Below, in pieces: positions 61,007 through 61,076 of a stretch of DNA of 64,000 bases (positions within the stretch are counted from its first letter, which is position 1; each line of letters starts with the position of its first letter). This stretch comes from Daphnia pulex. Taxonomy: Eukaryota > Arthropoda > Branchiopoda > Diplostraca > Daphniidae. The notes beneath the pieces were generated by a model. The model saw nothing but the letters and a program-made list of their open reading frames with translations, was not told the origin of the DNA and made no database searches. The DNA lies in the NCBI RefSeq assembly GCF_021134715.1, contig NC_060023.1:4278001-4342000 (forward strand). Reading direction: 5' to 3'. A program made the translations under genes and the position numbers.

Positions 61007-61076
61007 GCATAGACCGGGAATCGAACCCGGGCCGCCCACGTGACAAGCGAGCATTCTACCACTGAACCATCGATGC
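61007..61076 (-). tRNA. tRNA-Gly body with GTC (Asp) anticodon
   Basis: Loop TTGTCAC: C35 changed to T, anticodon GUC. Apart from the usual type B C5-U68 mismatch, the body is pure consensus, so this copy looks expressible. Confidence 0.88.

Follow-up and report, generated by a model that had tools for sequence, protein, structure and literature searches.

A tRNA-Gly body with a GUC anticodon in a tandem tRNA-Gly/tRNA-Met array of Daphnia pulex, probably a drifting remolded copy

The window analyzed here is a 64,000-nucleotide stretch of the Daphnia pulex genome (C7:4278001-4342000; 133,188,837 bases in 13 contigs). The ARAGORN program identified 67 tRNA genes in the window, 64 of which are Gly or Met genes that lie on the minus strand in tandem units. 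One gene, at 61006..61076 (minus strand), is labeled tRNA-Asp(gtc) by ARAGORN and consists of a tRNA-Gly body with a GUC anticodon. The anticodon occupies 61042..61044 (minus strand), and the changed base, tRNA position 35, is window base 61043. This interval is one base longer than the 61007-61076 of the initial annotation, and the additional base is the discriminator, A73. Upstream in the same repeat unit, ARAGORN places a tRNA-Met gene at 61149..61220 (minus strand), which we take to be initiator-like. The Gly bodies compared with the 61006 copy are also on the minus strand: a sister tRNA-Gly(GCC) at 61900..61970, a reference Gly(GCC) copy with no stem mismatch at 60529..60599, and the other in-window Gly body with GUC at 41293..41363, which carries both C56U and C5.U68. 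A Gly body with a TCC anticodon (position 34 changed) lies in the same array at 63697..63767 (minus strand). The window also contains two retroelement copies, at 27563-30743 and 48367-57985, both of which have a reverse transcriptase frame (identified as RVT_1 in the first copy, the one tested). On the opposite strand of both copies lies a frame with no Pfam match, which looks recombinase-like. A copia-type element at about 51321-55836 appears to break up the second copy. In addition, a 119-base Rfam tRNA match, possibly intron-bearing, lies on the plus strand at 20254-20372, where ARAGORN reports no gene.

The 61006 copy and its sister differ at one of 71 body positions, a C to T change at gene nucleotide 34, which is tRNA position 35. 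The single-base anticodon switch on a Gly body described in the initial annotation is thus confirmed. The copy bears a foreign anticodon on the body of another isoacceptor family, and an unchanged close paralog, the sister with GCC, gives the ancestral anticodon; both are features of a terminal alloacceptor remolding. The body had also been called intact and well preserved, which is incorrect, since both the copy and its sister have a C5.U68 mismatch in the acceptor stem, at a pair that is C-G in the 60529 reference copy. A fully paired acceptor stem would be expected of a functional chimeric tRNA, and that of the 61006 copy is interrupted at this pair. As tRNA matches in Rfam, the 61006 copy, its sister and the reference scored 57.7, 57.2 and 62.7 bits, respectively. 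Predicted fold energies, in the same order, were -21.1, -24.2 and -30.2 kcal/mol. Among four copies folded, the cloverleaf was the minimum-energy structure for the 61006 and 41.3 kb copies only, the sister and reference adopting other folds, and 142 of 200 shuffles of the 61006 copy folded at least as well; these calculations used unmodified RNA and are a weak guide for these tRNA copies.

The stem defect is common in the array to which the window belongs (the C7 4.3 Mb array). Pair 5:68 is broken in 28 of its 45 Gly copies, and for this reason the defect may be tolerated. At least one stem mismatch is present in 38 of the 45, as against 5 of 15 control copies fetched from C10, on which both structure and terminator counts for that contig rest. 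In the C7 4.3 Mb array, loss of the 5:68 pair marks a lineage.

Gly bodies of this family were sought throughout the genome. A 34-base Gly pattern gave 386 matches at up to three mismatches. The ungapped scan handles copies with indels badly, and several C2 copies receive false 3' mismatches from it. For the plus-strand copies on C7, an indel-tolerant pattern found 21 and the ungapped scan 16; matches to the tolerant pattern were mostly shifted by one base, and their mismatch counts were not used. A strict 21-base core identified GCC in 287 copies and T35 in eight Gly-body copies, five on C7 (including those at 61006 and 41293), one on C2 and two on C10, although any copy altered elsewhere in the core escapes these counts, as do the TTC copy at C7:4355967 and the CCC copy at C7:7185472. 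The initial annotation spoke of two occurrences 20 kb apart; both in-window copies are real, and the genome holds more than these two.

By the strict core, four copies are changed at position 33, one at 34, 12 at 35 and seven at 36, and the bases at changed position 35 are T in eight, A in two and G in two. Of these four positions, 35 is the one changed in the largest number of copies, yet several of these copies share a common origin. The Gly anticodons in the C7 4.3 Mb array are GCC (38), GTC (5), TCC (1) and TTC (1), and bodies of this family also bear TCC, TTC, CCC, GAC, GGC, GCA and GCT anticodons. The TTC (Glu) copy at C7:4355967 is a Gly body close to the GUC copies, with two anticodon bases altered. 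The idea that position 35 stands out in the C7 4.3 Mb array was rejected: parsimony on the unit tree gives it two changes, and 18 of the 71 body sites have at least two.

The flanks of the repeat units were used to trace the anticodon change. The 61006 and 61900 units differ by four substitutions in 506 aligned sites, position 35 included, and their flanks by three of 435 sites with no gapped columns. The 61006 and 41293 units differ at 24 of 426 flank sites and one body site (C56), with 18 gapped columns. The 41293 unit is nearly identical to that at C7:4353608 (2 of 435 flank sites differ) and is related to those at C7:4355488 and 4356448; all four have GUC and all four have C56U. Judged by these alignments, there are two GUC lineages within C7, and in view of the flank differences (24/426 and 18 gaps) a common origin of the 61006 and 41293 copies by duplication of a unit is rejected. 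The loop TTGTCAC and the 3' end TCTATGCA are common to the 61006 copy and the 41.3 kb lineage. Because the flanks separate the 61006 copy from the 41.3 kb change (4 versus 25 substitutions), the best fit is either parallel mutation or a conversion tract no longer than 55 bp. These were the two options named in the initial annotation, which is supported in this; the flanks favor parallel mutation.

A gene conversion that brought U35 from the 41.3 kb lineage into the 61006 unit is an unlikely but serious alternative. A donor would have been at hand, since the same array holds four exact GUC copies of that lineage. However, the two units differ at the nearest lineage markers, gene positions -2 and 54, which limits the tract to at most 55 bp, and U35 is also found in the C2 and C10 arrays. 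With GUC present at C2:8752746, at C10:9003424 and 9005425 and in the two C7 lineages, and provided that the arrays do not convert each other, GUC Gly bodies seem to have arisen at least four times, in three arrays. Conversion would be compatible with a drifting copy, and the likelihoods of the two readings overlap.

Pol III usually terminates at a run of four T residues (T4). In the 61006 copy, the A and B boxes agree with what we take to be the consensus, and the B box does so because C56 is kept, in this copy alone among the five exact GUC copies on C7. The first run of T4 or longer downstream is a T7 at 60777..60783 (minus strand), which starts after 222 nt, ahead of the next Met gene. Of the signals expected of a Pol III gene (A box, B box and a nearby T4 run), the copy therefore has both boxes in consensus form and a T4 run too far away, as scored on T4 runs, with other terminator types outside the test. 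Met genes with a T4 run within 15 nt number 44 of 46 in the C7 4.3 Mb array, 52 of 53 on C2 and 22 of 22 in the C7 7.2 Mb array; the corresponding figures for Gly copies are 1 of 45, 1 of 49 and 0 of 16. Pooled over these three Gly/Met arrays, with 22254-63767 of the window included, this amounts to 118 of 121 Met genes versus 2 of 110 Gly copies, despite the common repeat unit. On C10, all 15 of the Gly copies fetched have such a run.

At greater distances, 21 of the 45 Gly copies in the array around the 61006 gene have a T4 run within 60 nt, which tells against reading them simply as dead genes. The run lies 45 or 54 nt downstream in all seven mismatch-free copies, and is found within 60 nt in 4 of the 28 copies with a broken 5:68 pair. 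Stem state and T4 distance both mark unit lineages in this C7 4.3 Mb array. Several mismatch-free copies on C2 have no T4 run in 200 nt; thus, a missing T4 run alone does not mark a dead copy.

The second alternative is that the 61006 copy is an expressed chimeric tRNA whose Gly body reads GAC and GAU. Charging by GlyRS would place glycine at aspartate codons, and charging by AspRS would yield a silent extra Asp tRNA. Its consensus boxes and its cloverleaf as minimum-energy fold would suit such a gene. In the parts of PMC9976931 drawn on here, aspartate identity is assigned to G73, G34, U35, C36 and C38, and glycine identity to C35 and C36 in the systems studied, the elements in higher eukaryotes being described as not known. 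The copy has four of the five Asp determinants (G34, U35, C36 and C38), all in the loop, and U at position 25, which also speak for this alternative. However, position 73 is A in place of the strong Asp determinant G73, and C35 is lost, so the Gly set is incomplete as well. The C5.U68 mismatch and the first 222 nt downstream without a T4 run also count against expression. A73 is named for eukaryotic tRNA-Asp in the relevant part of PMC3923123, at odds with PMC9976931, and if this is right the argument from A73 falls. The five distinct tRNA-Asp genes of this genome have G73, with T runs downstream, in agreement with PMC9976931. The ordinary tRNA-Asp core gave 106 matches at up to three mismatches, some with an altered anticodon, and because of these any product of the 61006 copy would presumably be diluted by ordinary Asp genes. 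Most of these genes lie together: all but ten of the core matches listed fall in C10:5168429-5390134, where ordinary tRNA-Asp genes follow one another in tandem, often at intervals of about 508 bases. On this evidence, an expressed chimera at 61006 is quite improbable.

The initial annotation had regarded the 61006 copy as the best candidate for an expressed chimeric tRNA, which is unsupported, given the T4 run after 222 nt in this copy and the immediate TTTT in two GUC copies on C10. These copies, at C10:9003424-9003494 and C10:9005425-9005495, are GUC Gly bodies in a Gly/Trp tandem array that share a C49.A65 mismatch in the T stem. Both have the loop CTGTCAC on a Gly body, TTTT directly after the gene and an acceptor stem without mismatch (G-U counted as paired). 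On their sequence, the C10 pair are better candidates for expression than the 61006 copy. A broader form of this alternative holds that large tandem tRNA-Gly arrays repeatedly yield GUC Gly bodies, some of which would be expressed (most plausibly the C10 pair, less so the 61006 copy) and would cause low-level Asp-to-Gly substitution or silent Asp decoding; we consider it very improbable. Least probable of all is a base-calling or array-assembly error at 61043, which would account for the lone body difference between almost identical repeat units, but three more differences set the two units apart and the same position-35 change is found in other copies.

The explanation that is very probably correct is that the 61006 gene is a drifting copy in a tandem tRNA-Gly/tRNA-Met array which acquired GUC by chance, an alloacceptor remolding of a redundant or pseudogenised copy. 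Its observed basis, besides the sequence itself, is fivefold. First, a single difference separates the copy from its sister. Secondly, the two have a common stem defect. Third, there is no nearby T4 run. Fourth, the flanks form a separate lineage. Lastly, other anticodon variants occur on these bodies. In the order of events that we infer, a 61900-like unit that already had C5.U68 was duplicated, and position 35 of the 61006 copy then changed from C to T; point mutation is the likeliest route, and a short conversion a less likely one. Little or no mature tRNA would be made from this copy. Whatever was made would be charged poorly by GlyRS, having lost C35, and by AspRS, lacking G73, so that its effect would be slight against the large number of normal Gly and Asp genes.

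Several results stand against drift. The consensus A and B boxes, the Rfam score of 57.7 bits and the cloverleaf minimum-energy fold are among them, as is the larger number of copies (12) changed at position 35 than at 33, 34 or 36. In addition, fewer changes per site were counted in the Gly body than in the spacer of the C7 4.3 Mb and C2 arrays. The changes per site in the C7 4.3 Mb array were 0.96 for Gly, 0.67 for Met and 1.58 for the spacer (0.77 to 2.08 in 71-column windows). For the C7 7.2 Mb array, the values were 0.48 for Gly, 0.32 for Met and 0.48 to 0.97 for 71-column spacer windows, and for C2 they were 1.11, 1.90 and 1.52 to 3.30, respectively. On C10 (10 units), Gly had 0.11 and the 71-column spacer windows 0.04 to 0.48. 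Gly bodies are thus within the spacer range on C10 and in both C7 arrays, near its low end in the latter two, and under every spacer window on C2. Because the Gly body changes less than the spacer, there is weak constraint or conversion, and plain neutrality does not hold everywhere.

The drifting, remolded copy may be compared with known systems, in each case as far as the cited part of the source describes them. Almost all alloacceptor remoldings lie on terminal branches, and the authors regard most or all of these terminal ones as non-functional (Velandia-Huerto et al. 2016, PMC4981973). The 61006 copy resembles the terminal remoldings of primates and fruit flies in that paper in being one member of a redundant nuclear family, altered by a single anticodon change and probably a pseudogene; unlike them, it sits in a large tandem Gly/Met array and is known from one genome. 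Rogers and Griffiths-Jones (2014, PMC3923123) report that position 35, the middle base that is changed here as well, is the most frequent site of alloacceptor shifts. However, the filtered set in that paper requires syntenic orthologs and stable structures, and the 61006 copy has a stem mismatch, with one genome compared. For the nematode nev-tRNAs, Hamashima et al. (2015, PMC4300185) describe conserved, mature molecules that are leucylated in vitro, and no mistranslation by them could be detected. Charging identity and anticodon are mismatched in them as in the 61006 copy, although the nev-tRNAs are mature and conserved and the Daphnia copy is known here from its DNA alone. The nev-tRNAs are the nearest expressed case among those compared, and the 61006 copy fits the terminal, probably non-functional remoldings instead. 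Among titles and the openings of abstracts, with subscription papers outside the scope, no paper on this array was found.

The 61006 copy is very probably a recent alloacceptor remolding in a relaxed tandem array, which is a known kind. It carries a caution: ARAGORN assigns it to tRNA-Asp by its anticodon, although the body is that of a tRNA-Gly in such an array. The Gly/Met and related arrays also provide a natural set of anticodon mutants on near-identical bodies, with and without nearby T runs, with which the tolerance of an animal for chimeric tRNA genes could be studied.
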